From Pseudomonas sp. P8_241 (GTDB lineage Bacteria > Pseudomonadota > Gammaproteobacteria > Pseudomonadales > Pseudomonadaceae), in the NCBI RefSeq assembly GCF_034008315.1, contig NZ_CP125377.1, positions 3,484,001 to 3,548,000 on the forward strand: DNA of 64,000 nucleotides. Direction: 5' to 3'. Below the pieces are notes generated by a model. That model was not told where the DNA came from and searched no databases. It saw only the letters and a program-made list of their open reading frames with translations. Below are positions 1 to 32,106 of this stretch, one piece after another. The position numbers and the translations under genes were made by a program. Positions within the stretch are counted from its first letter, which is position 1; every line of letters starts with the position of its first letter.

Positions 1-344
1 CGCCGCTCGGTGATCGGGGCGTGACGCTTTCTGGCGGTCAGCGCCAACGCTTGAGTCTGGCCCGTGCGCTGCTCGGCGAGCCGGACATCCTGTGCCTGGA
101 CGATGCCACCAGCGCGCTGGATGCGATCAGCGAGCGTCAGGTATTGAACAACATTCGCCAGCTGCGCCGTGATCAGGGGCGTGCCACCACCTTGCTGGTG
201 ATCTCCAGCAAGCTGTCGACCATCCTCCTGGCGGACCGCGTGCTGATGCTCCAGGACGGTCGGATCGCCGCCAGCGGTACCCATGCTGAACTCTTGAAAA
301 CCCATCCGGACTACCGCGACCTGCTAGGGATCGACCATGGCTAA
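1..344 (+). CDS. ABC exporter half-transporter, C-terminal part (cut by window start)
   Basis: The reading frame is open from the first bases, so this is the 3' end of a longer gene; the GTG at 21 is an internal Val codon. Visible are the end of an ATP-binding domain: a canonical LSGGQ signature, a Walker B reading LCLDD-ATSALD, and a switch region SSKLSTI. The catalytic Glu after Walker B is Asp, and the H-loop His is missing. The next gene has the opposite pattern (good Walker B and H-loop, altered signature). This is the known arrangement of heterodimeric ABC exporters with one degenerate and one consensus ATP site. The stop overlaps the next start by 8 nt, so the two are translationally coupled. 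Substrate unknown, probably a drug or lipid-like molecule. Confidence 0.9.
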   Translation, partial: PLGDRGVTLSGGQRQRLSLARALLGEPDILCLDDATSALDAISERQVLNNIRQLRRDQGRATTLLVISSKLSTILLADRVLMLQDGRIAASGTHAELLKTHPDYRDLLGIDHG

Positions 345-2205
345 CCCAATCGCCGGCAAAGCCTTGAGCGATATCGAAATTGAAGAAATGCTGGCCAAAA
401 AAGCCCTCGACCGCAGCATGTTCGGTCGACTGTTGCCGCTGCTCAAACCGATTCGCCGACATATTGCCGGGGTCATCGGCATTGAATTGCTGCTGGTATT
501 CACGGTGTTCCTGCGCCCCTGGTTTGTCCGTGAATTGCTCGATCGTGGGCTGATTCAACAGAACGATCACTGGTTGCTCGATGAGCGCCTTGTGCTGTGG
601 CTCGGACTGGGACTGGCGGTCAGCTGGCTCGGGCGTTTCCTGCTCGCTGGGGTCTCGCAGTTCATCGCCGGCAGTGCGGCGATCCGGGTGTTGAATGACT
701 TGCGAGTACGGGTATTCGCGCATGTACAGAGCCTGAGCGTCAGCTATTTCGACCGCACCAAGGCCGGGCGAATCATTTCCCGTGTCGACCGTGATGTCGA
801 TGCCCTTGAACCGTTGTTGATCCAGGGGCCACCCGAGTTGCTTGGCGCCTTGCTGCGCTGCGCACTGGCCTCGGTGATGCTGTGGCGAATCGACCCGCGG
901 TTTTTTCTCAGTCTCGCCGCTACGGTGCCAGTGTTGGTGCTGGCGACCTGGAGTTTCAAACGCATTTCCCAGCGCAACTGGGCCAGGGTCGCGGAGAACC
1001 GCAGCCGTTTCACCGCGCATCTGGTGGAAAGCGTGAGCGGCGCGCGCATGTTGCAACAGTGTGCGCAGCAAGCCCCGAACCTGCGGCGCTACCGCGGCCT
1101 GCTGGATGACTTCAATCGGGCGCTGATCCACGGCAGCCTGCGATCCGGCTGGTTCGCACCCTTTACCGCCCTGCTCAGCTCGGCCGGGATGGCCGTGTTG
1201 TTACTGGTAGGCGCTTATGGCATGGCACAGGCGGATGTGACCGTTGGCCAGATCGCGGAGAGTCTGTTTTATGTGTTCCTGTTCCTCGGGCCACTGCAGG
1301 AACTGTCGGACCTGTTCGAGCGCTACGCCACGGGTTCGGCCTCGGCGCAGAGGATCTTTTTGTTGCTCGATACGCCTGCGCAGATCAACGACGACGCCAC
1401 ACCGCAAACCGTGGGCAAAGCCCGGGGCGAAGTGAGTTTCGAGCGAGCGCGTTTCAGCTACGATGCCAATAGCCCCTCGCCGGTGATCAACGACCTTGAC
1501 CTGCACATCCCTGCCGGTGAGGTAATGGCGATTGTCGGCCCTTCGGGTCACGGCAAGAGCACGCTGGTGCAGCTGCTGACGCGCTTCTACGAGGTTCAGT
1601 CGGGTGCGGTCAGACTCGATGGCATTGATGTTCGTAACCTGGCCCAGCATGAACTGAGGCGTAATGTCGGCGTGGTGCTGCAAGACAATGTGTTGTTCAG
1701 CGGCAGCATCCTGGACAACCTGCGTCTGGCATCTCCCCACGCCGACGACGCGAGCCTGATTGCAGCAGCCCGGGAGCTGGGCGCGGACGAAGTGCTGGAG
1801 CGCCTGCCGCACCAATACCAGACCGAAGTCGGTCCTTTGGGCGGGCATCTGAGTCATGGCCAACGGCAGTTGGTCTGCCTGGTACGTGCCTACCTCGCAG
1901 ACCCGGCGGTGCTGGTGCTGGACGAGGCGACCTCAGCTGTCGACATCCATACCGAGCGCCGAATTCAGCGAGCGTTTCGCCGACTCTGCGAAGGCCGCAC
2001 CGCCATCATCATCGCCCATCGCCTGGCAACCATTCGCGATGCCGACCGCATCGCGGTCATCCGTCATGGTCGCGTAGTGGAACAAGGCCCCCACAGCCAG
2101 TTGATCGATAAGGGTGGCGCATATGCGGCGTTGTACCAGACGTACCTGCGCAGCGCCGAAGCCGGTTCGTCCATTGACGAGATCGTCGCCACCGCATCGG
2201 CGTGA
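337..2205 (+). CDS. ABC exporter half-transporter (membrane domain plus ATPase)
   Basis: 622 aa, the usual length for a full half-exporter. An N-terminal region with about six membrane segments (roughly residues 40-330) is followed by an ATP-binding domain (about 365-600). Walker A is GPSGHGKST, Walker B is LVLDEATSAVD with the catalytic Glu, and the H-loop is IAHRLATI. The signature is LSHGQ instead of LSGGQ. It complements the preceding protein, whose signature is canonical but whose Walker B Glu and H-loop His are lost, so the two should form a heterodimer with a single fully competent ATP site, as in the TM287/288 or MdlAB type. It acts in the inner membrane; substrate not predictable. 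Confidence 0.93.
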   Translation: MANPIAGKALSDIEIEEMLAKKALDRSMFGRLLPLLKPIRRHIAGVIGIELLLVFTVFLRPWFVRELLDRGLIQQNDHWLLDERLVLWLGLGLAVSWLGRFLLAGVSQFIAGSAAIRVLNDLRVRVFAHVQSLSVSYFDRTKAGRIISRVDRDVDALEPLLIQGPPELLGALLRCALASVMLWRIDPRFFLSLAATVPVLVLATWSFKRISQRNWARVAENRSRFTAHLVESVSGARMLQQCAQQAPNLRRYRGLLDDFNRALIHGSLRSGWFAPFTALLSSAGMAVLLLVGAYGMAQADVTVGQIAESLFYVFLFLGPLQELSDLFERYATGSASAQRIFLLLDTPAQINDDATPQTVGKARGEVSFERARFSYDANSPSPVINDLDLHIPAGEVMAIVGPSGHGKSTLVQLLTRFYEVQSGAVRLDGIDVRNLAQHELRRNVGVVLQDNVLFSGSILDNLRLASPHADDASLIAAARELGADEVLERLPHQYQTEVGPLGGHLSHGQRQLVCLVRAYLADPAVLVLDEATSAVDIHTERRIQRAFRRLCEGRTAIIIAHRLATIRDADRIAVIRHGRVVEQGPHSQLIDKGGAYAALYQTYLRSAEAGSSIDEIVATASA

Positions 2206-2211
2206 ATGCGA

Positions 2212-2290
2212 CCGCCATCGCCAGCAAGCCGGCTCCTACAAACTCGGGTTCACACGCGGACCTGTAGGCGCTGGCTTGCCAGCGATGGCG
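2212..2290. repeat. REPIN (inverted REP pair)
   Basis: Two arms of the Pseudomonas REP type, ccatcgccagcaagccggct and its near inverse (gctggcttgccagcgatgg), face each other about 25 bp apart. A further single arm lies at 2320-2346. Such elements are mobilised by RAYT transposases; none is encoded in this window. Confidence 0.8.
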
Positions 2291-2491
2291 CGCTCAAAGT
2301 CGCGCAAAATCCACCGGCCTGATCGCCAGCAAGCCTGCGCCTACAGATGCACGTGCAATGAACACTCCTTGTTGCACCCTGAACACCCATTGCTGGCCGG
2401 CTGTTGCTACAGCAGCACCCTCGCCTGCCACCCCTCCCCGTTTGCCCGCCAATCCCCCGGCCCTGCTGGTCAGAACCCGGCTTATCGACCA

Positions 2492-2507
2492 TGGCATGTC
2501 CGTTGCA
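2492..2507 (+). promoter_or_regulatory. Sigma-54 (RpoN) promoter for the monooxygenase-desulfinase unit
   Basis: TGGCATGTCCGTTGCA matches TGGCAC-N5-TTGCA with one mismatch (T for C at the sixth base) and has correct -24 GG to -12 GC spacing. Transcription would start near 2518, about 55 bp before the ATG at 2572. Two further sites of the same kind precede the other transcription units of this locus, which supports a shared sigma-54 control. Confidence 0.65.
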
Positions 2508-2571: not shown

Positions 2572-3732
2572 ATGAGCACTGAGTTTTTCTGGCGCCTGCC
2601 GCTGGGCACCGATGGTCCGCAACTGACCACCGACAAACATAACCGCGGAAATCCGCACTATCGTCCAGGCAATATCGCACCCGGGCGTCTGCCCAATGGT
2701 GAACCGGATGACTTCACCTACATCGACTACATTGCCCAAGTCGCAAAAGCCGCCGAACTGGCAGGTTTCGAAGGCGCCTTGCTGCCCACCGGCCCGGAGC
2801 CGTGGATTGCCGCAGCGGCCCTCGCACGGGAAACCCGCCGGATCAAATTTTTGATCGCATTCCAAGCGACCTGGACACTTCCGGCCTACGCCGCGCAACA
2901 AGCGGCGATCCTTCAAAACCTCAGTCGCGGTCGCCTGGAGTGGAACATCATCACCGGTGGCAACCCGGCCAGTCAGCGGGCCAACGGTGACTTCCTGGAA
3001 CATGACCTGCGTTACAAGCGCACCGGCGAATTTCTCGACATTATCCAGGGCCTTTGGCAGAACGAGCGTTTCTCCTATGACGGCGATATTTATCAACTGG
3101 AGAACGGCGCGTTACCCCACGGCCTGCAGAACGAGCGCAAACCCGGCGTGTACTTTTCCGGTTTTTCCGATGCGGCCCTGGATGTTGCAGCCAAACACGC
3201 AGACGTTTACCTGAACTGGGCCGAGCCCATCGACAAGCTCAAGCCGCACATCGAACGGGTGCGCGAACTGGCAGACAAGCAGGGCCGCAGCGTGCGCTTC
3301 GGTCTGCGGGTCGATTTGTTCGCCCGGGAAACCGAAGAGTTGGCGTGGAAAGATCTGCGTCGTCAGTTCGACAAGCTCGAAGGCAAGAGCAGCGTGGTCG
3401 CCAAGGGCTTCACCAGTGGCTCCGATTCGGTCGGTGGCGCGCGCCAGACCGCCTACCACCAGCACATCGACCGCTTCGACGACCTGATCATCGGCCCGAA
3501 CCTCTGGGCCGGCTTCGCCAAGGCAAAGCCGGGGCCGACCGTGGGTCTGGTGGGCAGTCACGAGAACATCGCCGAACGCCTGGTGGAATACCGCGACGCC
3601 GGTTTCTCGACCTTCATCCTCGCCGGTAACCCACACCTGGAAGAAGCCCTGCGTATCGGTCAGGAAGTCCTGCCACTGGTGCACCAACGTCCAGCCACCC
3701 AGGCGACCTCTCATTTGAAAGCCAGCGCCTGA
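2572..3732 (+). CDS. LLM-class flavin-dependent monooxygenase, SsuD-like
   Basis: 386 aa, start chosen at the ATG preceded by AGGAG; an upstream ATG in frame (2554) lacks a good ribosome site. The sequence follows the FMNH2-dependent alkanesulfonate monooxygenase SsuD along its length: an FFWRLPLG start, LPTGPEPW in the SsuD IPTG region, RFGLRVDLFARET, NLWAGF, and AGNPHLEEALRIG near the end. The SsuD residue Cys54 is not present and the His of the RxH motif is Asp, so the substrate probably differs from alkanesulfonates. The family uses reduced FMN from a separate flavin reductase, which is not encoded nearby. It is followed 20 bp later by two DszB-like genes, suggesting that it makes the sulfinate or related C-S compound they act on. 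Confidence 0.85.
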   Translation: MSTEFFWRLPLGTDGPQLTTDKHNRGNPHYRPGNIAPGRLPNGEPDDFTYIDYIAQVAKAAELAGFEGALLPTGPEPWIAAAALARETRRIKFLIAFQATWTLPAYAAQQAAILQNLSRGRLEWNIITGGNPASQRANGDFLEHDLRYKRTGEFLDIIQGLWQNERFSYDGDIYQLENGALPHGLQNERKPGVYFSGFSDAALDVAAKHADVYLNWAEPIDKLKPHIERVRELADKQGRSVRFGLRVDLFARETEELAWKDLRRQFDKLEGKSSVVAKGFTSGSDSVGGARQTAYHQHIDRFDDLIIGPNLWAGFAKAKPGPTVGLVGSHENIAERLVEYRDAGFSTFILAGNPHLEEALRIGQEVLPLVHQRPATQATSHLKASA

Positions 3733-3752: not shown

Positions 3753-4805
3753 ATGACTCAACCCCTCGACACCCTCTGGTACACCCGTTGCCCGGTCCCC
3801 ACCGGACTGGGCATCGCCGTGCAAAAAGGCTGGCTGCAAGACACCGTTGGCGCACTGGGCACGCAAGTACAGTCATTGCGCGAGTCCGCCGACAAGGCTG
3901 TGCGCGAGTCGCATTTCGATCACACTCTGCGCAACTCGGTACGCCATGGCGGCAATATCCCGGCGATCTGGGCCAGGGCCCAAGGCCGGGAGACACGCGT
4001 CATCGGGCTGTCGTGGGCCGATGAAGTGCAACTGATCCTGACCCTTCCAGACAGCGGTATCAAAACCGTCAAGGACCTGAAGGGACGCCGTTTCGGCCTG
4101 CCCGACTGGGCTGGTGCGCAGATCGATTTTACCCGCGCCCAGGCCCTGCGCGGTCTGGAAAACGCCCTGATACTCGAAGGCCTGCAAGTCGGCGATGTGC
4201 AGCTGGTGAACTACCGCTACGAGGGCACGTTCAGCGATCCTCAGGTCAGTACTGTCAACGGCACGCCGGTCAGTACGCAGCGGGTCGAAGGGCGCAATCT
4301 GGAACTGGTGGGCCTGCTGCGTGGTGAAGTCGATGCGATTTTCCTCAAAGGCGCCAGCGCCGCCCGCCAGGCCCATGAGTTTGGCCTGCACACGGTCATC
4401 GACACCGGCTCGCACCCCGAGCCGCTGATTCGCAGCAACAACGGCACGCCTCGCACACTGGCGGTGGACCTGAACCTGCTGGACAACCACTTCGAGGTCG
4501 CCACCGGCATTCTCGATTCTGTACGACGCGCCGAATTTTGGGCGCACACCCATCCCCAAGACGCGCACCGCTACCTGGCCCGCGAAACCAACAGCAGCGA
4601 GTACTGGGTCAGCGCCGCTTATGGCAACGACGCCCACCTGCGCCTGAACACCGAACTGGACGAGCAGGCCATTGGCGCCCTGCAGGACTTCACCCACTTT
4701 CTGCATCGCTGGCGTTTCATCCCGAAAAGTTTCGACGTGCGCGATTGGATCGATCGACGACCGCTGGACGCGTTGCTGCAATCGCCCACCGCGCTGGCCG
4801 GGTAA
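3753..4805 (+). CDS. DszB-like desulfinase (periplasmic-binding-protein fold, cytoplasmic)
   Basis: 350 aa starting at the ATG at 3753 with GGAGAA upstream; a TTG two codons' distance earlier is less likely. There is no signal peptide, although automatic annotation would probably say ABC substrate-binding protein. It aligns with 2'-hydroxybiphenyl-2-sulfinate desulfinase DszB: YTRCPVP against YSNCPVP, then HF ten residues before R-x-GG (H54, R64, G66-G67 against H60, R70, G72-G73), then TRVIGL and the KGRRFGL segment. DszB uses Cys27, His60 and Arg70; the equivalents here, Cys13, His54 and Arg64, are all present with the same His-Arg spacing. Expected reaction: an organic sulfinate gives sulfite plus the desulfonated compound. 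Substrate unknown. Function inferred from motif comparison made from memory. Confidence 0.75.
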   Translation: MTQPLDTLWYTRCPVPTGLGIAVQKGWLQDTVGALGTQVQSLRESADKAVRESHFDHTLRNSVRHGGNIPAIWARAQGRETRVIGLSWADEVQLILTLPDSGIKTVKDLKGRRFGLPDWAGAQIDFTRAQALRGLENALILEGLQVGDVQLVNYRYEGTFSDPQVSTVNGTPVSTQRVEGRNLELVGLLRGEVDAIFLKGASAARQAHEFGLHTVIDTGSHPEPLIRSNNGTPRTLAVDLNLLDNHFEVATGILDSVRRAEFWAHTHPQDAHRYLARETNSSEYWVSAAYGNDAHLRLNTELDEQAIGALQDFTHFLHRWRFIPKSFDVRDWIDRRPLDALLQSPTALAG

Positions 4806-4841
4806 CCCGCCAGGTTTCATGGACTCGAACTGAAGGCCAAC

Positions 4842-5900
4842 ATGAGCAAACCACTCGATACGCTTTGGTACACCCATAGCCCTGTTCCCACGGGGCTTGG
4901 CATCGCCGTGCAGTCCGGTCGACTGGCCGAAGCCTTTCTGCCGTTCGGCACCAACATCCAATCCCTGCGCGAGTCCAGCGAGCGGGAGGTACGCGAAGCC
5001 CATTACGACCATCACCTGAAAAACTCGGTGCGTCATGGCGGCAATATCCCGGCCATCTGGGCCTATGCCAGCGGCGTACAAACCCGGGTACTGGGGCTGT
5101 CCTGGAGCGACGAGGTGCAGTTGATCCTGACCACCGAGGAAAGCGGCATCAAGAGCATTCGCGACCTGAAAAACCGTCGTTTCGGCCTGCCGAAATGGGC
5201 CAACGTGCAGATTGACTTCACCCGTGCCCAAGCCCTGCGCGGCCTGGAAAACGCCCTGAAGCTCGAAGGCCTGACAGTGGCCGACGTCGAGTTGGTGGAC
5301 TACCCCTATGGCGGGACCTACAGCGACGATCAGAAGCAGCATGTCTATGGTTCGGAAGTCAGCCTGGAAGTCACCCGCATCAGCAAGCGCAACAATGAGC
5401 TGATCGGCTTGCTGCGCGGTGACATCGACGCGATTTTTCTCAAGGGCGCGCATGCGGTGCACCTGGCCCATGAGTTCGGCTTGCAGGTGGTGGTCGATAC
5501 CGGCTCCCATCCGGACCCGCTGATTCGCTCGAACAACGGCACGCCCCGAACCCTGACCGTGGACACCCATTTGCTGCACGAGCACTTCGACGCCAGCGTG
5601 AAAATCGTCGATACCGTGCTGCGCACCGAGCAATGGGCCTGGGCCAATCCGGATGAAACCCGGCGTTTTCTGGCCCGTGAACTGAACACCAGTGAGTATT
5701 GGGTAGCCGCCGCCTACGGTGAAGACGCCCATCGGCGCTTGCGCACCACGCTCGATACCCGCTCGATCGAAGCGTTGCAGGATTTCACCGATTTCCTGCA
5801 TCGCTGGGATTTCATCCCGCGACGATTCGATGTGCGCGACTGGATCGATTTCAGCGTGCTTGAAAATGTCATTGGCTCCACTTCCCGCCTGGCGGTTTGA
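4842..5900 (+). CDS. DszB-like paralogue with Ser in place of the catalytic Cys
   Basis: 352 aa, ATG at 4842. It is very similar to the preceding protein over its whole length, with shared RHGGNIPAIWA, QIDFTRAQALRGLENAL, GSHPxPLIRSNNGTPRTL and WIPR/FIPR-FDVRDWID regions, so the two arose by tandem duplication. It has no signal peptide. His54 and Arg64 are kept, but position 13 is Ser (codon AGC at 4878-4880) where the first copy has Cys, giving YTHSPVP. In DszB a Cys27-to-Ser change abolishes activity as far as I recall. This copy may be a regulatory or heterodimer partner, a cytoplasmic carrier of the sulfur compound, or an enzyme with different chemistry. It is followed by a REPIN, suggesting the transcript ends there. 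Confidence 0.72.
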   Translation: MSKPLDTLWYTHSPVPTGLGIAVQSGRLAEAFLPFGTNIQSLRESSEREVREAHYDHHLKNSVRHGGNIPAIWAYASGVQTRVLGLSWSDEVQLILTTEESGIKSIRDLKNRRFGLPKWANVQIDFTRAQALRGLENALKLEGLTVADVELVDYPYGGTYSDDQKQHVYGSEVSLEVTRISKRNNELIGLLRGDIDAIFLKGAHAVHLAHEFGLQVVVDTGSHPDPLIRSNNGTPRTLTVDTHLLHEHFDASVKIVDTVLRTEQWAWANPDETRRFLARELNTSEYWVAAAYGEDAHRRLRTTLDTRSIEALQDFTDFLHRWDFIPRRFDVRDWIDFSVLENVIGSTSRLAV

Positions 5901-5920: not shown

Positions 5921-5993
5921 CCGCCATCGCCGGCAAGCCGGCTCCTACAAGGTTTGCGCACGACCTGTAGGAGCTGGCTTGCTGGCGATGGCG
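5921..5993. repeat. REPIN
   Basis: Inverted pair of REP arms: ccgccatcgccggcaagccg at the left and gctggcttgctggcgatggc at the right, with CTCCTACA/TGTAGGAG inner parts. It lies immediately after the second desulfinase-like gene and probably stabilises or ends that transcript. Confidence 0.8.
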
Positions 5994-6220
5994 TCCGCAA
6001 GGCCAATGAATTGCTGGCCAGGCAACACTCTTCCCCCCGACGCCTGCTGCTCCAGCAACACCCACCAAACAACTTTGTGCTGAATACCTGACAGGCTCTT
6101 TAACTCGCATGCAGCCTAACTAAAAAAACGCTGGAAAAACCCCACAAACACAACTTTCAATAACAACATAACCATTTAAATACAGGCACTTAACAAAACT
6201 AAAGCGCTCGCAAAACCTCT

Positions 6221-6237
6221 TGGCACGATCTCTGCTC
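6221..6237 (+). promoter_or_regulatory. Sigma-54 promoter for the first TonB receptor
   Basis: TGGCACGATCTCTGCTC fits TGGCAC-N5-TTGC with one mismatch in the -12 block (C for the first T) and exact GG-to-GC spacing. The predicted start near 6247 leaves a leader of about 28 nt before the ATG at 6275. Confidence 0.6.
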
Positions 6238-6274: not shown

Positions 6275-8545
6275 ATGCATAAACTTAATCCAATCACCAA
6301 GAGTATCTGGCTAACCTTGTTGCTGGCCGGGGGCGGCGTCAGCGAGGGATTGCTGGCAGCAGAAGCCACAGAAGCCGATAGCAGCAAAACCGCCACGGAG
6401 CCTTCACTCAAGACCGTGACCGTGACCGCTCAACACCGGGAAGAAACCCTGCAAGAGATTCCGGTCGCGGTGTCGGCGATACAGGGCAACAGCCTCGTCG
6501 TCGATGGTGTGCGCAACATGGGTGACATCACCACGTTCGTGCCCAACACCTCGGCAAAAAACCCGGACGGCGATGGCCGGCCGCGTTGGTACATCCGTGG
6601 TCTCGGCACCGGGGACACCGGCGCGGCAACGGTTTTTCCGGTGGGAATCTACGCCGATGACGTCTACTTGAACGCACCTATCGCCGGCGGCGGGCCGTTG
6701 TTCGACCTGGAGCGCATCGAAATCCTGCGAGGGCCGCAAGGCACGCTGTACGGCAAGAACACCACCGCAGGCGCGGTGAATGTCATCTCCAAAAAACCAA
6801 CCTTCGACACCGATGGTTTCGGCACGATCGGGTTTGGCACCAAAAACGAACGCATCGTCAGTGGCGCTCTGGGGGGAGCGCTGGTGGATGAGAAACTCGC
6901 GGCGCGGATCGCGCTGTATTCCGAAGAGCGTGACGGCTTTCAGGACAACCTGGTGGACGACAACACCTACGGCGACGTCAACAAGAAAGCCGTGCGCCTG
7001 CAGTTTCTGGCTCAGGTCAATGATGATCTTGAGGCATTGCTGAAGGTTCACAGTCGCGAATACAAAGGCGACGGCAGCAACGGCTCACTCACCGTCGGGC
7101 GCTACTACAACGTGGGTTATGAACGTCCCAGCGGGCGCGATATCGATATCAATGTCAATGAAGACTCCAAGCTCAATCACGACGGCACTTCGCTGACCCT
7201 GAACTGGCATCTGGGTGACTACACCCTGACCTCCATCAGTGCCTATGACTACATTCGCGGGCAATCCACCAGCGACGCCGACTACACGCCTTATGAGGTC
7301 AACGGCGCAGCGATTGCCGACAACAAATATTCGCAGTATTCCCAGGAACTGCGTCTGGCCTCGCCGCAGCAGGAAACCTTGCGCTGGTTGTTGGGAGCGC
7401 ACTACTTCCACGAAGATCTCGACAGCTCCGCACAGCGCATCATCACACCCGGCCCCACGCCTAACGGCACCGGCTCGAACCAGATCGGCGGCGCCACCGA
7501 CTTTCGTGACTTGAGCTACGACCACGCCACGGACAGTTACGCGCTGTTCGGCAACCTGACCTATGACTTCACCGATAAGTTCTCCGTGACCAGCGGCCTG
7601 CGCTGGACCCAGGAAAAGAAAGACATCGACCTCGACCTGACCCAACTGACCCGCATCACCGCCAACGGTCCATTGGTGCCCCTGGCCGGTGTCGGCACCA
7701 ATGGCAACCGTCAGGAAGACAAGACCTGGGAAGCCTGGACCTATGACCTGACGCCGGAATACCGGATCAACGACAACCTGCGAGTGTTTTTCCGCTATGC
7801 CCACGGCTTCCGTTCCGGCGGATTCAACACCGGCCTGTCCACCAGCCTTTCGCAGCTGACCACGGTGGACCCGGAACAACTCGACGCCTACGAAATCGGC
7901 CTCAAGTCCGAGTGGTTCGACCATCGCCTGACGGCCAACGCCAATATCTTCTATTACGACTATTCGGACATCCAGGTGAACCTGCTGACGGTCAACAACG
8001 GGGTGCTCACCACGGCGTTGACCAACGGCGCCAAGGGTACGGTCAAGGGCGCCGAGCTGGAACTCGAAGCCCAACCGACTGACTTCCTGCATCTGCGTGC
8101 CGCGGTTTCGTTCCTCGACACCGAGTACACCGACTTCAAGAACACCAACCCCAACACCGGCGTCGTCACGGGTGATTACAGTGGCAACAGCTTCGTGCGT
8201 TCGCCGCGCAACGTGGTGGCGCTGGGTGCCGATTACACGTTCCCGCTGGAAATCGGTGGCAAGTTGGTCGCCGGTGGCGATGTCAGCTATCGCGACAAGG
8301 AATACTTCCTCGCCGACCGCCAGAGCAGCGCCGACAAGACCCTCAGCCAACCGCACTACACCCTGGCGAACACTCGCCTGACCTGGTTCAGCCCGGATGA
8401 AAAGCTCAGCGTCACTGGTTTTGTGAACAACGTCACCGACCGTCGCTACCAGGTTCACGGCCGTCCGAACGGCACGCTGGGCCAATACGTCATTACCTAC
8501 GGCGACCCACGCACCGTTGGCCTGAGCGTGACCAGCCGCTTCTGA
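6275..8545 (+). CDS. TonB-dependent outer-membrane receptor
   Basis: 756 aa. A signal peptide (about residues 1-30, ending at LLAAEA) leads to a TonB-box-like segment TVTVTAQ and a plug domain (about 50-170) with the usual IEILRGPQGTLYGKNTTAGAVNV motif, then a 22-strand barrel that ends in Phe (VTSRF). Upstream lies a sigma-54 promoter, and the gene sits between the desulfinase-like pair and an SsuBC-like importer. It therefore probably brings a bulky sulfur compound or its ester across the outer membrane, rather than a siderophore. The substrate cannot be read from the sequence. Confidence 0.9.
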   Translation: MHKLNPITKSIWLTLLLAGGGVSEGLLAAEATEADSSKTATEPSLKTVTVTAQHREETLQEIPVAVSAIQGNSLVVDGVRNMGDITTFVPNTSAKNPDGDGRPRWYIRGLGTGDTGAATVFPVGIYADDVYLNAPIAGGGPLFDLERIEILRGPQGTLYGKNTTAGAVNVISKKPTFDTDGFGTIGFGTKNERIVSGALGGALVDEKLAARIALYSEERDGFQDNLVDDNTYGDVNKKAVRLQFLAQVNDDLEALLKVHSREYKGDGSNGSLTVGRYYNVGYERPSGRDIDINVNEDSKLNHDGTSLTLNWHLGDYTLTSISAYDYIRGQSTSDADYTPYEVNGAAIADNKYSQYSQELRLASPQQETLRWLLGAHYFHEDLDSSAQRIITPGPTPNGTGSNQIGGATDFRDLSYDHATDSYALFGNLTYDFTDKFSVTSGLRWTQEKKDIDLDLTQLTRITANGPLVPLAGVGTNGNRQEDKTWEAWTYDLTPEYRINDNLRVFFRYAHGFRSGGFNTGLSTSLSQLTTVDPEQLDAYEIGLKSEWFDHRLTANANIFYYDYSDIQVNLLTVNNGVLTTALTNGAKGTVKGAELELEAQPTDFLHLRAAVSFLDTEYTDFKNTNPNTGVVTGDYSGNSFVRSPRNVVALGADYTFPLEIGGKLVAGGDVSYRDKEYFLADRQSSADKTLSQPHYTLANTRLTWFSPDEKLSVTGFVNNVTDRRYQVHGRPNGTLGQYVITYGDPRTVGLSVTSRF

Positions 8546-8568: not shown

Positions 8569-8655
8569 CCTGTAGGAGCCGGCTTGCTGGCGATGAGGCC
8601 CGCAAGCCTTGCATCGCCCTGAAGGCCGCCATCGCCAGCAAGCCGGCTCCTACAG
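8569..8655. repeat. REPIN, left copy
   Basis: tgtaggagccggcttgctgg and its inverse (ccagcaagccggctcctaca) form the arms. The loop, gatgaggcccgcaagccttg and onward, is nearly identical to that of the REPIN at 8837-8922, so the two copies are recent duplicates of one element. Confidence 0.8.
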
Positions 8656-8662
8656 AAAACCT

Positions 8663-8835
8663 CGATTTCCGGGCCACCGGTTTCCCAGTAATACCCACCG
8701 ATTTCCGGGCCACCGGTTTCCATGCAATACCCAACGATTTCCGGGCCGCCGGTATCCACGCAACACCCATCGATTTCCGGTCTGCCGGTATCCATTCAAA
8801 CAATCGATTTCCGGTCCTCCGGAACCACACAAAAC
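8663..8835. repeat. 36-bp tandem repeat, five units
   Basis: Units begin with CGATTTCCGG at 8663, 8699, 8735, 8771 and 8804, so the period is 36, 36, 36 and then 33 bp. Each unit carries two CCGG cores (for example CCGGGCCACCGG) and an AATACCCA-type tail. Because the period is a multiple of three, the minus strand stays open and encodes a 12-residue repeat, but no gene signals accompany it. The units are adjacent without unique spacers, so this is not CRISPR. Confidence 0.85.
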
Positions 8836-8836
8836 C

Positions 8837-8922
8837 CTGTAGGAGCCAGCTTGCTGGCGATGAGGCCCGCAAGTCTTGTATCGCTTTGAAGGCCGCCATT
8901 GCCGGCAAGCCGGCGCCTACAG
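8837..8922. repeat. REPIN, right copy
   Basis: Second near-identical copy of the REPIN at 8569-8655. It ends 19 bp before the start codon of the next receptor gene, so its hairpin would lie in the leader of that mRNA. Confidence 0.8.
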
Positions 8923-8941: not shown

Positions 8942-11404
8942 ATGTTCCATCACACCCCGTTGGCCGGCGCTATTGCGCTGGTCATTGGCAGCCTTGCCCT
9001 GCCTGTCGTTGCTGCCCCTACCCAACCCGGTGCAACCGGCGATCACCTGGACACCGTGGTCGTGCTCGGCACCCGTCGAAGCGATGTCACGGCACTGGAA
9101 AGCGCCGCGCCGATTGACGTGCTGTCTGGCGAGCAACTGGAACAGACCGGCGCCAGTGACCTGTCCGGCGCCCTCACCGCGCTGTCACCCTCGTTCACCT
9201 ATCCGCAATCACCCCAAGGTGCCTTCGCCGGGTCCATCGCCCAAGGCGCATCGCTACGCGGCCTGGCCTCTGATCAGGTGCTGGTGCTGGTCAACGGCAA
9301 GCGCCGCCATACCAGCGCCAACGTCACCCGGCAAAGCCTGGTCAATGGCCGTGGTGCGGCGGCCGTCGATTTGAGCCTGATTCCCCTGAGCTCGATCCAG
9401 CGCGTGGAAATCCTTCGCGACGGCGCCGCAGCGCAATACGGCTCAGACGCCATTGCCGGCGTGATCAACATCGTGCTCAAGGAAAAGGACGAGGGAGGCA
9501 ATCTCGGATACCGCTTCGGCGGCTATGACAAAGGTGATGGCATCCAGCGCAAACTCAGCGGCTGGAAAGGCTTCACCCTGCCCAACGACGGCTTCCTGAC
9601 CATGAGTTTCGACGCCGGCAATCAGGACCCGGCCAGCGACACCAACCCGGACAACCGGATTTTTTACCCGGGCTCTACCAGCATCAACACCCCCCGTGAA
9701 CAGAACAATCGCTATCGCACCTGGCGTTGGGGCTCGGGCAATGTATCGGACCAATACAACGTTGCCGTAAACAGCGAGGTCGGCATTGGCGAAGGTCTGA
9801 CCGCCTACGGCTTTGCCACGTACGCCCACAAAAATACCGATGCGGAAGGCTTTTTCGATCCGCCTACGACGTTGCGCAACAATTACAGCAGCACCGCGTT
9901 GCAGCGATTCCCGGACGGACGCCTGCCCATTACCCGCTATTCGCTGGAAGACTATGCATTGACCGGGGGGCTGCGCTACGAAGACGAACAACTGGGTAAA
10001 TTCGACTTCGCCGTGAACCATGGCGACAACACCCTGGATTCCACCGACCACCATGCGATCAACCCGAGCTGGGGCGCCAACAGCCCGGAAAACATCTACA
10101 CCGGCAAACGTGAGGCTGACCAGACCAACGCAACGCTGGACTGGGTGCGGGATTTCCCCACCGACCTGTTGTTCAAGCCGCTGACACTCTCCGCTGGCCT
10201 GGCCTGGCGCCAGGAGAACTACGAGCTGAGCGAAGGAGAAGCCGCCGGATGGCAGAACGGTCCGTTCTTCAATAGCGTCGACCCGATTACGCAGCGGCGC
10301 ATCCCGGGTTACTACTCGGGCATTACCCAAGTCGATGCGGCCACACTGGACCGCAACGTATTGGGAGCCTATGTCGATGTCGAAGGGCAGATCACCGAGA
10401 AATTCCAGGCCGGTGTTGCGGTGCGCACCGAGCACTACTCGGACTTCGGCGACACCACCAACGGCAAACTGTCCTTGCGTTATGACTTCACTGCGCAGAT
10501 CGCTGCCCGAGCTACCGCCAGCACTGGCTATCGCGCGCCGTCACTGGTGCAGAGCGGCTTGTCGTCATTCAGCGTGCAGGTGGTGGAGCAACCGCCAGGC
10601 AGCGGCAATTTTGTCGAAGTGCAGCAACGCACCCTGCGCGCAGACAGCCCGGAAGCCGCGTTGCTGGGCGGCACATCGCTGAAACCGGAGGAGTCGACCA
10701 GTTATTCTCTGGGTCTGGTCTGGCGCCCGCTGGCCAATGCATCGGTGACGCTGGACGCCTACCGCATCGATATCGATAACCGCATCACCCTCTCCGACCA
10801 ATTGCCCGCGTCGGTGGTCTCGCCGATTTTCGCTGGCACGCCGTACGCGAATATTCAAAGTGCGGCCTTCTACAGCAACGTCGCCGATACCCGCACCGAC
10901 GGTGTCGAGCTGGCGAGCAACTATCAGTTGGACCTGCAGCAATGGGGACAACTGAACCTGAACGCCGGCGTGAGCCAGAACAACACCAAAATCACCGCCC
11001 TGCGTGACGTCGGCAATATCAAGGGTTCGCAGATAATCGGTCGAACCACCCAAGGTTTGATCGAAGACGGCACCCCCGAAACCAAGCTGATCTTGAGTGC
11101 CAACTGGCTGTATGACGATTGGGGCATCACCGTGGCTCAACGTCGGTATGGCGAATGGAAAAGCCTCAACGCCGCCAACCCCACCCTGGACCAGACGTAC
11201 AGTCCGCAATGGGTGACCGACCTGGACCTGTCCTACACCTTCAACAAAACCCTGAAGGTTTCGCTGGGTGCGATCAACCTGTTCGATACCCACCCGGACA
11301 AGGCTGACGGCACGCAGTTGTACGGTGTACCGAAATACTCGATCACCAGCCCTGAAGGCGCCCAGGGAGCGTTCTACTACACCAGTGTCAGTTACGAATT
11401 CTGA
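8942..11404 (+). CDS. TonB-dependent outer-membrane receptor (second)
   Basis: 820 aa. A signal peptide (about residues 1-24, LPVVAAP) is followed by a plug domain with TVVVLGTRRSDV, a QVLVLVNGKRRHTS segment and VEILRDGAAAQYGSDAIAGVIN, then a long beta-barrel that ends in SYEF. The sequence belongs to a different subgroup from the first receptor and is not a tandem copy. Together with the neighbouring ABC importer and flavin monooxygenase, it points to uptake of an organosulfur compound. The ribosome site GGAAGGA precedes the start. Confidence 0.9.
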   Translation: MFHHTPLAGAIALVIGSLALPVVAAPTQPGATGDHLDTVVVLGTRRSDVTALESAAPIDVLSGEQLEQTGASDLSGALTALSPSFTYPQSPQGAFAGSIAQGASLRGLASDQVLVLVNGKRRHTSANVTRQSLVNGRGAAAVDLSLIPLSSIQRVEILRDGAAAQYGSDAIAGVINIVLKEKDEGGNLGYRFGGYDKGDGIQRKLSGWKGFTLPNDGFLTMSFDAGNQDPASDTNPDNRIFYPGSTSINTPREQNNRYRTWRWGSGNVSDQYNVAVNSEVGIGEGLTAYGFATYAHKNTDAEGFFDPPTTLRNNYSSTALQRFPDGRLPITRYSLEDYALTGGLRYEDEQLGKFDFAVNHGDNTLDSTDHHAINPSWGANSPENIYTGKREADQTNATLDWVRDFPTDLLFKPLTLSAGLAWRQENYELSEGEAAGWQNGPFFNSVDPITQRRIPGYYSGITQVDAATLDRNVLGAYVDVEGQITEKFQAGVAVRTEHYSDFGDTTNGKLSLRYDFTAQIAARATASTGYRAPSLVQSGLSSFSVQVVEQPPGSGNFVEVQQRTLRADSPEAALLGGTSLKPEESTSYSLGLVWRPLANASVTLDAYRIDIDNRITLSDQLPASVVSPIFAGTPYANIQSAAFYSNVADTRTDGVELASNYQLDLQQWGQLNLNAGVSQNNTKITALRDVGNIKGSQIIGRTTQGLIEDGTPETKLILSANWLYDDWGITVAQRRYGEWKSLNAANPTLDQTYSPQWVTDLDLSYTFNKTLKVSLGAINLFDTHPDKADGTQLYGVPKYSITSPEGAQGAFYYTSVSYEF

Positions 11405-11464: not shown

Positions 11465-11551
11465 TTGTAGGAGCCGGCTTGCTGGCGATGGCGGACAGCA
11501 CGATTTGTGGTGTTTGCACCGCAGCTATCGCCAGCAAGCCGGCTCCTACAG
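11465..11551. repeat. REPIN with an additional partial REP arm
   Basis: Arms tgtaggagccggcttgctgg and ccagcaagccggctcctaca are separated by about 45 bp; a third partial arm (tcgccagcaagccgg) follows at 11561-11575. Confidence 0.8.
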
Positions 11552-11609
11552 GGGGTGTTATCGCCAGCAAGCCGGATCCGGGAGGGGGCGGTGCATGCAT
11601 CGTCGCGGC

Positions 11610-11625
11610 TGGCACAGCTCTTGCG
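11610..11625 (+). promoter_or_regulatory. Sigma-54 promoter for the ABC importer operon
   Basis: TGGCACAGCTCTTGCG is a perfect match to TGGCAC-N5-TTGC. Transcription should begin near 11636, about 26 nt before the ATG at 11662. This also settles the permease start, because an in-frame start at 11479 would lie upstream of the promoter. Confidence 0.75.
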
Positions 11626-11661: not shown

Positions 11662-12423
11662 ATGCGCCCCCAACGACTGTTGTATACCCTGACCTGGCTT
11701 ATCTCTCCTGCTGCCCTGCTGTTGCTCTGGGCGTTGGTAGCGGAGGCCGGAATTTTCCCGCGTAACCTGCTGGTCCCACCCGCACAAGTATGGCGAACCT
11801 TCGGGGAGCTGTCGGCCAGCGGCGAGTTGCAAGAGCACCTGCTCAACAGCCTGTCGCGCCTGGGGCTGGGATTCACTGTCGGCTCGTTGTCAGGCCTGGC
11901 GTTCGGGATCCTCATGGCCTTGTCGAAAAATGTCGAGAACTACTGCTCGCCGCTATTTCATACGCTGCGCCAGATCCCCAGCATCGCGTTGATCCCGATG
12001 TTCGTGCTGCTGTTCGGTATCGATGAAACCTTCAAGATCATCATCGTCGCCAAAACCGCCTTCTTCCCGGTGGCACTGGCCGCCAGCGAAGGCGTCAAAG
12101 CCATTCCGCGCAGCTACTTCGAAGTGGCTGACGTGTATCGGCTGCGCTGGCCGACCTTCGTCCGCGAGATCGCCCTGCCTGCTGCCACGCCCCCGATCAT
12201 CACCGGATTTCGCATCAGCCTGACCCGGGCCTGGGTGGTGCTGGTCGCCACCGAGTTGCTGGCTGCCGACAGCGGCCTGGGTCAGATGATTGAAATGAGC
12301 CGGCAAATGTTGCGCATTGATGTGGTGATGGTCGGCGTGGTCGTCACGGGCGTGATCGGCTTTGTACTCGACTTTGGTTTTCGCCAACTGGAACAGCGGA
12401 TGTTTCGCTGGCAGACCCGCTAG
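11662..12423 (+). CDS. ABC transporter permease, SsuC/TauC type (first)
   Basis: 253 aa from the ATG at 11662, chosen because a sigma-54 promoter lies between this codon and the earlier in-frame start. Six membrane segments are expected. The cytoplasmic EAA loop is visible as EVADVYRLRWPTFVREIALPAA, and the family end FGFRQLEQRMFRW follows. It is the membrane channel of a sulfonate/taurine/nitrate-type importer. The next gene, 9 bp downstream, encodes a second, clearly different permease of the same length, so the channel is probably a heterodimer; most SsuBC and TauBC systems use one permease gene. Confidence 0.88.
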   Translation: MRPQRLLYTLTWLISPAALLLLWALVAEAGIFPRNLLVPPAQVWRTFGELSASGELQEHLLNSLSRLGLGFTVGSLSGLAFGILMALSKNVENYCSPLFHTLRQIPSIALIPMFVLLFGIDETFKIIIVAKTAFFPVALAASEGVKAIPRSYFEVADVYRLRWPTFVREIALPAATPPIITGFRISLTRAWVVLVATELLAADSGLGQMIEMSRQMLRIDVVMVGVVVTGVIGFVLDFGFRQLEQRMFRWQTR

Positions 12424-12432
12424 GAGCCGCTG

Positions 12433-13194
12433 ATGTCTCGACTATTTGCAAAATCCCGCGGCTTGTTGCTGCCGCTATTGTTGATCGGCGGCTGGGAGTA
12501 CCTGTCACGCCAGGGCGCCGCCGGGGCTTACGCCTTTGTGCCGTTGTCAGCTATTGGTTCGGCCTTGGTGGAACTGCTGGCCAATGGCGAACTTTTGGTG
12601 AATTTGCTGGCCAGCCTGGCCCGCACCTGCGCCGGCCTGGCCCTGGGCATCCTTTTCGGTGTGCTGCTGGGGGTGCTGATGGCGCTTTCAGCCGTGGCCA
12701 ACCGCTTGATCGGGCCGTTGTTCCATTCCATTCGCCAGGTCCCGATGCTGGGCTGGATTCCCCTGATCGCCATGTGGTTCGGCAACGGAGAATTCTCCAA
12801 GGTGCTGATCGTCAGCCTCGCCGCGTTTTATCCGATGGTCCTCAATACCTGGCAGGGCTTCAGCCACGTCGAACAGCGCTATCGGGAGGTTGGGCAGGTG
12901 CTGGTCCTGAGCCCTTGGCAACGGTTTCGCCATGTACTGCTGCCGGCGGCGCTACCGAGCATCGCCACCGGGGTGTTGCACGCACTGGCATTTGCCTGGG
13001 TCACCGCCATCGGTAGCGAACTGTTTCTCTCCTCAGGCGCCGGCCTCGGCAACCTGATGATGAACGCCGAAGCCGGCTCACGCATGGAGGTCATTGTCCT
13101 CAGCGTGCTGTGCATCGGCCTCTGTGGCTACCTGATGACGCTGCTCTTCACCCTTCTTAGCCGCCATTTGCTGCGCTGGCGCAACACTCGTTGA
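12433..13194 (+). CDS. ABC transporter permease, SsuC/TauC type (second)
   Basis: 253 aa. Six predicted membrane segments with the EAA loop REVGQVLVLSPWQRFRHVLLPAA near residue 150. It is related to, but well diverged from, the preceding permease, and the two probably form one channel. The next gene begins 11 bp downstream. No periplasmic binding protein with a signal peptide is encoded between 2206 and 14000, so the binding component either lies elsewhere or is dispensable. Confidence 0.88.
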   Translation: MSRLFAKSRGLLLPLLLIGGWEYLSRQGAAGAYAFVPLSAIGSALVELLANGELLVNLLASLARTCAGLALGILFGVLLGVLMALSAVANRLIGPLFHSIRQVPMLGWIPLIAMWFGNGEFSKVLIVSLAAFYPMVLNTWQGFSHVEQRYREVGQVLVLSPWQRFRHVLLPAALPSIATGVLHALAFAWVTAIGSELFLSSGAGLGNLMMNAEAGSRMEVIVLSVLCIGLCGYLMTLLFTLLSRHLLRWRNTR

Positions 13195-13205: not shown

Positions 13206-14000
13206 ATGAACGCAATTGCCCAAACTACTCTGCTACACAGCACGCCCTTGCAGTCGGGTGCGCTGCATATTCGCGGTCTGAGCAAGACTTTTCGGATCGA
13301 AGGACAACCGCTGCCGGTACTGAAAAATATCAATCTCGACGTTCGTCCCGGCGAGTTCGTCAGCATCGTCGGTGCCAGCGGCTGCGGCAAATCAACCCTG
13401 TTGCGGCTGATCGTCGGGTTGGAAGCCGATTATGAAGGGGACATCTCGCTGGACGGCAAAAGCGTCGTCGGCACCAGCCTGGAGCGCGGGATCGTGTTTC
13501 AGGACCATCGGTTGTTTCCGTGGATGACCCTGAGCCAGAACATCGCCCTGGCCTTGAAGAACCACCCGCTGTCTGCAGCGGAAAAAGACCGGTGGGTGGC
13601 CGAGCACATTGCTCTGGTGAACCTCGATGGCTTTGAAAACGCCTACCCGCATCAGCTGTCTGGTGGCATGGCACAACGAGCAGCCATCGCTCGCGCATTG
13701 ATCAATAAACCAAAAGTGTTGTTGCTCGACGAGCCTCTGGGCGCTCTGGATGCGCTGACGCGGATCCGCCTGCAACACGAGTTGCAGCGCATCTGGGTAC
13801 AGCAGCGCTGCACGGTGATCATGGTTACTCACGACATTGAAGAGGCGCTGTACCTGGGGGACCGGGTGATCGTCATGGACGCCCATCCGGGACGGATCAA
13901 ACACGAGATCAAAGTCGACCTGCCCCACCCCCGGGAGCGTACTTCGACCGTGTTGCAAGGTTACAAGGAACAGCTGCTGGAGGAACTGGTTGGGCATTGA
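13206..14000 (+). CDS. ABC transporter ATP-binding protein, SsuB type
   Basis: 264 aa, start at ATG 13206 with AAAGG upstream; a TTG at 13191 overlaps the previous stop and is less likely. Walker A GASGCGKST, a Q-loop (VFQDHRLFPW), signature LSGGMAQR, Walker [13 protein letters not shown] and H-loop VTHDIEEAL are all intact. It energises the two preceding permeases, and the three genes form one operon from the sigma-54 promoter at 11610. Confidence 0.9.
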   Translation: MNAIAQTTLLHSTPLQSGALHIRGLSKTFRIEGQPLPVLKNINLDVRPGEFVSIVGASGCGKSTLLRLIVGLEADYEGDISLDGKSVVGTSLERGIVFQDHRLFPWMTLSQNIALALKNHPLSAAEKDRWVAEHIALVNLDGFENAYPHQLSGGMAQRAAIARALINKPKVLLLDEPLGALDALTRIRLQHELQRIWVQQRCTVIMVTHDIEEALYLGDRVIVMDAHPGRIKHEIKVDLPHPRERTSTVLQGYKEQLLEELVGH

Positions 14001-31089: not shown

Positions 31090-32106
31090 ATGCTCAAGCC
31101 CCTGCACCAATGGATTCGACACTCACTGCTGTTACCCGCCGCCGCGCTGACCCTGGGCCTTGCAACTGTTGCCCAGGCACAGACGGTGACTATCGGCGTG
31201 CAAAGCATGTTCGCGCCGTGGAAGAACGCCATCGCCGAGAAGCAATTCGAGAAGGCCACTGGCTGGGACATCCAATGGCGCAACTTCGACAGCGGTGGCG
31301 ATGTGATGCTGGCTATGGCCTCCGGTGACGTGCAGATCGGCGTGGCCGGCAGCAGCCCGATTGCCGCCGCCGTAAGCCGTGGCGTGGACGCCCAGTTGTT
31401 CTGGATTCTGGACAACATCAATGACGCCGAAGCCCTGGTAGTGCGCAATGGCAGCGGCATCGTCGCGCCCCAAGACCTGGCGGGTAAAACCCTGGCCGTG
31501 CCTTTTGTGTCCACCACGCACTTTCATGCCTTGTTTGCCCTGGAACAGTTCGGCCTGAGCGGCAAGGTCAAGGTCATCAACCTGCAGCCTTCGGACATCC
31601 CGGCCGCGTGGGAGCGCGGCGACATCGACGCGGCGTTCATCTGGGACCCGGCATTGGGTCGCCTCAAGCAAAGCGGGCAGGTGTTGCTGACCTCCGGGCA
31701 GTTGACCCAATGGGGCAAGGCCACCTTCGACGGCATCGTGGTCGACCGCAAGTTCGCCGCCGAGCACGGCGCCGGCATGCTTGCCCTGACCAAGGTGTTG
31801 CAGGCCAGCACCGCCGACTACGTGAAGGCGCCTGGCAGTTGGACCGCCGACTCGCCGCAAGTGATCAACGTGGCGCGCCAGTCCGGTGCCAAGCCTGACG
31901 AAGTGCCTCCCGTGCTGGCCCTTTACCAGTTTCCTCTGGCCACCGAACAGGCCGGTGCCAACTGGCTGGGGGCGGGCAAGGACGGTGGCGCGGCCAAGGC
32001 GCTGGCGGCCACTGCCGCCTTCCTCAAAGAACAGAAAAAAATCCCCTCGCTGCTGCCCGACTACAGCGTCGCGATCAACCCGGGCTTCGTCCAGGCCACC
32101 GAGTAA
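31090..32106 (+). CDS. tauA: Taurine ABC transporter, periplasmic binding protein
   Basis: 338 aa. A signal peptide (about residues 1-31, ending TVAQAQ) precedes the TauA-type protein: [41 protein letters not shown] and [22 protein letters not shown]. It captures taurine or a similar sulfonate in the periplasm. It is the first gene of tauABC, preceded by TauR-type boxes. Confidence 0.88.

Follow-up and report, generated by a model that had tools for sequence, protein, structure and literature searches.

In a 64,000-nucleotide window (C1:3484001-3548000) of the Pseudomonas sp. P8_241 genome, which comprises 6.39 Mb in a single contig, two adjacent genes encode paralogous proteins, here P1 and P2, that are nearest by sequence, profile and predicted fold to the sulfinate desulfinase DszB, with the binding protein SsuA behind. 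P1 carries the active-site residues of DszB and is very likely a cysteine-dependent enzyme of the DszB type; with less assurance, we consider it probable from its sequence that it is a cytosolic sulfinate desulfinase. P2 has the motif SPVP, with serine where DszB has its catalytic cysteine, a point absent from the initial annotation of this region, and is probably not the same enzyme as P1. The closest named relatives of P1 belong to Pseudomonas (e.g., P. laurylsulfativorans at 96% identity). As first annotated, an SsuD-like flavin monooxygenase gene (LLM2) precedes P1, and the gaps of 20 bases between LLM2 and P1 and 36 bases between P1 and P2 are such that the three genes look like one operon.

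2572..3732, + strand: LLM2, SsuD-like two-component flavin monooxygenase
3753..4805, + strand: P1, DszB-like protein with Cys13, His54 and Arg64 (350 amino acids; ATG 3753 to stop 4805)
3789..3791, + strand: TGC codon of Cys13, the sole P1 cysteine
3912..3914, + strand: His54 codon of P1
3942..3944, + strand: Arg64 codon of P1
4842..5900, + strand: P2, P1 paralogue with Ser13, His54 and Arg64 (352 amino acids; ATG 4842 to stop 5900)
4878..4880, + strand: AGC codon of Ser13 of P2, at the position equivalent to the catalytic cysteine

Active-site residues and sulfur-poor composition of P1

DszB outranked SsuA for both proteins in the sequence, profile and fold comparisons, in keeping with their earlier description as DszB-like. 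Their description as proteins of periplasmic-binding-like fold that lack a signal peptide also holds: none was visible at either N-terminus on inspection by eye, and the upstream sequence could hardly accommodate one, with an in-frame stop 41 codons before P1 (most of this stretch overlapping the 3' end of the LLM2 gene) and 12 codons before P2. Homology between P1 and DszB (PDB 2de2, 2de3) is nearly full-length. The P1 motif comprises C13-P-V-P, H54, R64 and G66-G67, and HMMER and hhalign alike matched C13 to DszB Cys27, H54 to His60 and R64 to Arg70; Gly67 aligns with DszB Gly73, completing the Cys/His/Arg/Gly set. Cys27 of DszB is described as catalytic, His60 and Arg70 as holding the sulfinate, and Gly73 as part of the key residue set (PMC12168087). 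The residues named at the outset were therefore confirmed, while the claim of equal spacing held in part: His and Arg are ten residues apart in both proteins, but Cys and His are separated by 41 residues in P1 versus 33 in DszB.

We compared these columns in an alignment of 58 P1/P2-family rows, 30 DszB rows and 13 secreted binding-protein rows. The His was found in 52/58, 30/30 and 0/13 of these rows, respectively, and the Arg in 58/58, 30/30 and 0/13. Because both residues occur in every DszB row and in none of the secreted binding proteins, the residue match is not a product of chance. The Cys column lies in a stretch where the secreted binding proteins align poorly (C in 1/13, S in 1/13). 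Column 13 is a gap in three P1 relatives among the 120 listed, and the Cys27 column among 80 DszB relatives holds Gly in one and a gap in five.

Amino acid composition also singles out Cys13. P1 contains this one Cys and no further Met, and P2, LLM2 and a second SsuD-like monooxygenase of this genome (LLM1) contain 0 Cys and 0 Met beyond the start; two nearby TonB-dependent receptors (756 and 820 amino acids) have 0 Cys and one Met each beyond the start. Eight comparison genes of our choosing, further along the window, encode 2.4 to 4.8% Cys plus Met. All 66 P1-clade proteins have Cys13, and in 57 of them the aligned part holds no other Cys; the corresponding Cys of P3-type proteins (the type of a third DszB-like protein of this genome) is likewise found in 50/50 and stands alone in 45. 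Of the 66 P2 proteins, 48 lack Cys altogether. Since other cysteines were shed and Cys13 was kept, P1 probably needs Cys13. The argument from composition is limited by certain binding proteins, encoded in other parts of the genome, that contain as little sulfur as P1 (L085, L086, L092). DszB is sulfur-poor too, with one Cys and no Met (PMC8557817).

The serine paralogue P2

The distribution of P1 and P2 was assessed in 76 loci retrieved by a P1-based pattern search (best 80 of 84), with flanks of up to 10 kb, some cut by contig ends. Both proteins were encoded in 55 loci, P2 only in 10 (all Pseudomonas) and P1 only in 10 (none Pseudomonas), with more distant relatives in L080; P2-only loci are under-counted because the search was based on P1. 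On a tree of 197 proteins (matches in the loci at E 1e-30, plus 8 of 200 listed database proteins), every protein (197/197) has the Arg, 131 have the Cys and 66 have Ser in its place. These 66 Ser proteins are the P2 orthologues and form one clade (support 0.97), so the cysteine was most simply lost once. The initial annotation called the pair tandem desulfinases, a label that finds no support for P2, whose clade lacks the catalytic Cys (Ser in 66/66).

When the two clades were compared (66 versus 66), five columns held different residues, each fixed at 95% or more: Arg12His, Cys13Ser, Trp27Arg, Ser53Ala and Glu192Asp. The P2 set used here and for composition was picked by Ser at column 13, which makes the Cys13Ser difference definitional. 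Three of the five changes are at Cys13 itself and at neighbours of Cys13 and His54. His54, Arg64, Glu91, Lys199, Arg227 and Arg234 are shared by both clades, and P2 therefore probably still binds the ligand. Mean pairwise identity over the 55 paired loci was 0.827 for P2 and 0.781 for P1, P2 being the more alike in 1183/1485 locus pairs; by this measure of sequence, the constraint on P2 is the stronger.

In a sample of 298 genomes of the same family, in which P1 and P2 were distinguished by identity alone, 33 genomes have P1 and the same 33 also have P2. One further genome (G255) encodes P2 and a P3-type protein and lacks P1, two (G250, G211) have only relatives at 41-42% identity, and one (G275) has only a 62% fragment of residues 228-341 that could be a P2 remnant. 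Among genomes with P2-only loci, a P3-type relative was present and P1 absent in 9/9 searchable (L073 was left out), and the P3-type protein has Cys, His and Arg in all five loci where it was readable. Taken together, every genome seen with P2 also has a relative of one of the Cys-bearing types, P1 or P3, the G275 fragment apart.

This pattern bears on the possibility that P2 is itself an enzyme, using Ser13 in place of Cys, and that the pair represents two desulfinases, which would be compatible with P1 as a desulfinase. The invariance of the serine across the P2 clade, the higher conservation of P2 and its occurrence free of P1 in 10 loci all speak for such an enzyme. However, the C27S variant of DszB was crystallised with substrate bound (title of 2de3), suggesting little turnover, and the P2-only genomes that could be searched all encode a P3-type relative, of the Cys type in the five read in the locus; catalysis by Ser13 therefore seems unlikely to us.

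Another split was observed within the family. The His is replaced in 7 deep paralogues on the 197-protein tree, and sphingomonads encode P3-type paralogues with Asp for His beside His-bearing copies:

L057:4354-5427: Asp-for-His P3-type paralogue
L060:4190-5344: Asp-for-His P3-type paralogue
L061:4139-5395: Asp-for-His P3-type paralogue
L063:3771-4862: Asp-for-His P3-type paralogue

Monooxygenases, promoter elements and the surrounding sulfur island

LLM2 is nearest to MsuD (39% identity) and SsuD, sharing their family and fold, and scored under the cutoff of the NCBIfam SsuD model TIGR03565 (296.6 vs 518.2 bits); the genome's own SsuD, encoded elsewhere, scored 632.6 bits and has the full sulfonate motif. 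In MsuD, the sulfonate site consists of W195, R225, R296 and A/S299, and no measurable sulfite was reported for W195A, R225A and R296A (PMC8234197). At these sites, close LLM2 orthologues have W, R, K and P in 61/63 and W, R, R and P in 2/63, and the sulfonate loop RGGA/S is replaced by KPGP in 61/63. LLM1 orthologues have F, R, G and A in 19/19. The full four-residue motif occurs in none of 15 more distant LLM2-like rows (W, R, R in 7) and in one of 2 distant LLM1-like rows. With this altered loop, a plain alkanesulfonate is a less likely LLM2 substrate and a sulfone becomes conceivable; its cleavage would give a sulfinate.

Three elements resembling sigma54-type promoters precede genes of the cluster:

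2491..2507, + strand: sigma54-like -24/-12 element ATGGCATGTCCGTTGCA, 2 mismatches, ending 64 bases before LLM2
6220..6236, + strand: sigma54-like element, ending 38 bases before TonB receptor 1
11609-11625: sigma54-like element, ending 39 bases before permease 1

Their conservation was evaluated upstream of orthologues with at least 60% identity and at least 300 upstream bases; these upstream sequences are related, and the matches are not independent events. A match was found for LLM2 in 61/63, P3 in 32/36, receptor 1 in 31/36, the SfnB-like gene in 24/35, permease 1 in 12/46, P1 in 10/63 and receptor 2 in 3/31. None was found upstream of P2 (0/67), the ATPase (0/51), permease 2 (0/46), the AraD-like gene (0/31), LLM1 (0/20) or the exporter half ExpA (0/34), and the 31/41 matches for the other half, ExpB, fall in coding sequence, the one in this genome (window 57-73) lying inside the ExpA gene. 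On the opposite strand, used as a control, there were matches for P3 (28/36) and SfnB (24/35), which share a divergent region, and for LLM2 (13/63), with 0 for the others. Raw counts were not above chance (12 vs 8.55 expected in the window, 4 vs 2.12 in L081 and 2 vs 2.60 in L116), and the case for sigma54 thus rests on position and conservation. The element upstream of LLM2, together with the sulfur-poor proteins, lends backing to the early view that these genes, which follow one for an SsuD-like monooxygenase, serve sulfur scavenging.

The operon is part of an island of about 37 kb (C1:3460588-3498000) that includes genes of the window and reaches upstream of it (L081, L116; C1:3457000-3488000). 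Names of upstream genes were assigned by eye unless a profile score is given. Other genes placed by coordinates are:

L081:4805-5536, - strand: class II aldolase/AraD-like protein
L081:8303-10345: heterodimeric ATP-binding cassette (ABC) exporter, first half (ExpA)
337..2205, + strand: heterodimeric ABC exporter, second half (ExpB); ExpA starts before the window and ends at 344
6275..8545, + strand: TonB-dependent receptor 1
8942..11404, + strand: TonB-dependent receptor 2
11665..12423, + strand: SsuC/TauC-like ABC permease 1
12433..13194, + strand: SsuC-like ABC permease 2
13206..14000, + strand: ABC importer ATPase

In total, the island encodes four SsuD-like monooxygenases, three DszB-like proteins and one SfnB/DszC-like enzyme, along with three TonB receptors, two importers, the exporter pair and a sigma54-type activator, some of these identified by eye. 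Upstream of the window lie P3, which has the Cys, His and Arg, the AraD-like gene, LLM1, the SfnB/DszC-like gene, the exporter and an oligopeptide-type importer, as well as two more SsuD-like monooxygenases, a further TonB receptor, an SsuA-like protein that is secreted, and the activator. The activator resembles, by eye, those of L072 and L060, which match general sigma54-activator models below cutoff; it is presumably SfnR. The SfnB/DszC-like protein scored 392.7 bits to the SfnB model (cutoff 430.9) and 200 bits to the DszC model (cutoff 850). With an SfnB-like gene, a sigma54-type activator and sigma54-like elements, the island resembles the sfn genes (SfnB, SfnG, SfnR).

Much of this arrangement recurs. 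Where both P1 and P2 are encoded (55 loci), the flanks contain LLM2 in 51 cases, an AraD-like gene and a TonB receptor in 44 each, the permeases and ATPase in 43, P3 in 34 and the exporter in 28. The exporter could expel the desulfurised carbon skeleton. AraD-like relatives also lie near P1 in 8/10 P1-only loci. In Sphingomonas L057, which the arrangement in L060 resembles (by eye), an NtaA/DszA-type monooxygenase gene directly precedes P1; its product scored 532.7 bits to TIGR03860, over the cutoff, and matched DszA in PDB at 1.4e-85, behind YtnJ/MoxC at about 1e-91. Of the 4S set, DszB-like and SfnB/DszC-like proteins are present (the latter with 200 of 850 bits to the DszC model), and the monooxygenase partner here is SsuD-like; in L057 it is of the NtaA/DszA type.

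Two features of the window stand apart from these comparisons. Repetitive extragenic palindromic (REP)-like GTAGGAGC elements lie between the transcription units of the cluster (window 2219-2240, 5928-5990, 8572-8860 and 11467-11560), with only two occurrences elsewhere in the window (46275 and 52743). The gene at 31090-32106 encodes a secreted binding protein of the SsuA family, possibly as part of a further sulfonate system.

Alternative readings, precedents and a proposed route

Several observations weigh against P1 as a sulfinate desulfinase acting behind LLM2. Its identity to DszB is about 24-25%, it lies outside the DszB clade proper (on the tree it is separate from the six DszB-family rows), and Glu91, Lys199, Arg227 and Arg234, invariant in the P1/P2 family, are different in 30/30 DszB rows; the low identity and these residues imply that the substrate probably differs from that of DszB. 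SsuD-type enzymes free sulfite straight from sulfonates and need no desulfinase, and LLM2 is SsuD-like. Of the four residues that contact the sulfonate, LLM2 retains two, Trp and the first Arg, although its changed loop makes a plain alkanesulfonate pathway, considered for LLM2, less likely. P1 and P2 occur without LLM2 in the flanks of L039, L044 and L048 (L045 is cut by a contig end). Retention in the Pseudomonas loci is stricter for P2 than for P1 (10 P2-only, 0 P1-only), which would not be predicted if P1 were simply the enzyme. No SfnG scored over the family cutoff in this genome. Finally, the island is not uniformly sulfur-poor, with Cys plus Met at 3.2% in permease 1, 4.4% in permease 2 and 2.3% in the ATPase; the exporter halves have 1.5 and 1.8% and this genome's P3 1.1%.

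The invariant columns unlike those of DszB and the SsuD-like character of LLM2 would suit a Cys-dependent enzyme of DszB fold that acts on a non-sulfinate (e.g., a sulfonate, sulfone or decarboxylation-type substrate), as would the presence of the same fold in MqnD, Thi5 and 4,5-dihydroxyphthalate decarboxylase. The Cys/His/Arg/Gly set is nevertheless that of DszB, and with the sulfur-poor composition and sulfur-type gene context it leaves such a substrate with only a small probability in our estimation.

The least probable alternative is that P1 and P2 perform no catalysis and are binding proteins of the SsuBC-type importer that lack a signal peptide, or cytosolic sensors: they share the periplasmic binding protein fold of SsuA, but P1 and P2 score only 72.3 and 84.4 bits to the NCBIfam SsuA model TIGR01728 (SsuA_fam; cutoff 163.5 bits), sulfonate-binding proteins are secreted and lack the His and Arg, and P1 has an invariant Cys in otherwise nearly Cys-free proteins. 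A role in place of binding proteins, as first annotated, is made still less likely: the island itself encodes a secreted protein of SsuA type (98.6 bits to SsuA_fam), about 24 kb from P1/P2, and such a protein also occurs in 23/76 related loci. In L056, L057 and L070 its gene directly adjoins the permease genes, indicating that the importer there has its own binding protein. These secreted proteins make P1/P2 unlikely as the importer's binding proteins, yet none was found in 53/76 loci within the flanks of up to 10 kb. The expectation that such proteins are annotated as transporters was borne out in part: among 120 listed relatives (of 2014 matches), many are named ABC transporter substrate-binding protein, while several JGI names and a few NCBI names already read 2'-hydroxybiphenyl-2-sulfinate desulfinase.

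For P1 as a desulfinase, we propose from sequence and gene context the following reaction, order of steps, type of substrate and role of P2. An oxidised organosulfur compound would enter via the TonB receptors and ABC importer, and LLM2 would cut one C-S bond, leaving a sulfinate. P1 would bind this sulfinate by Arg64 and His54 and free sulfite with Cys13 for assimilation. P2, with its binding site kept and its cysteine lost, would most likely hold the same or a related ligand without thiol chemistry; alongside a paralogue of the Cys type, it may act as carrier, holding partner or sensor. More speculatively, P2 might be a natural counterpart of the C27S trap that holds the sulfinate uncleaved and hands it from LLM2 to active P1 or P3; such a hand-over would explain why the Ser protein was not lost in the Pseudomonas loci seen.

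A route through a desulfinase and an SsuD-type monooxygenase has precedent. In Gordonia terrae C-6, bdsABC comprises a desulfinase, an alkanesulfonate-monooxygenase-type protein and a reduced flavin mononucleotide (FMNH2)-dependent monooxygenase, and E. coli extracts with bdsABC convert benzothiophene to o-hydroxystyrene (PMC3868597). Likeness to the Pseudomonas genes lies in a desulfinase gene with an SsuD-type monooxygenase outside dsz and sulfonate-type ABC genes nearby; Gordonia differs as an actinobacterium, and the accessible part of that paper mentions no Ser paralogue. The chromosomal IGTS8_peg4802 of Rhodococcus IGTS8 is listed as SsuA/DszB in a table of proteins from dibenzothiophene cultures and numbered near SsuA, SsuB and SsuD, a likeness by listing alone, again with no Ser paralogue mentioned in the part available (PMC8557817). 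In the DszB system, by comparison, the monooxygenase partner is DszA-like rather than SsuD-like, and it is in Pseudomonas that a Ser paralogue adjoins P1. The dimethyl sulfone route employs SfnG, MsuC and MsuD and no desulfinase, unlike this island (PMC8234197), and sfnB has been reported in dibenzothiophene use without a DszB analogue (PMC11852219).

The accessible parts of PMC13352529, PMC12892942, PMC7661421, PMC10256816 and PMC11852219 contain nothing on these proteins. A search of titles and abstract openings in the open-licence literature (subscription papers lay outside it) retrieved no paper that deals with this pair in Pseudomonas or with a DszB paralogue in which Ser naturally replaces Cys. 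PA2599/PA2600, which we had presumed to be possible P. aeruginosa counterparts, led to no useful paper and were dropped. Within the reach of this search, three features are new: the strict pairing of a Cys with a Ser protein, the set of genes, and the composition poor in sulfur that singles out Cys13.

Should P1 prove to be a desulfinase, DszB-type chemistry, known mainly from actinobacterial fuel desulfurisation, would serve natural sulfur scavenging in soil pseudomonads. The transporter label would then be corrected, and the natural Cys/Ser pair would offer a means to probe the role of the thiol. If P2 does pass on its ligand, bacterial sulfur scavenging would gain a new element, the hand-over of substrate by a pseudoenzyme.

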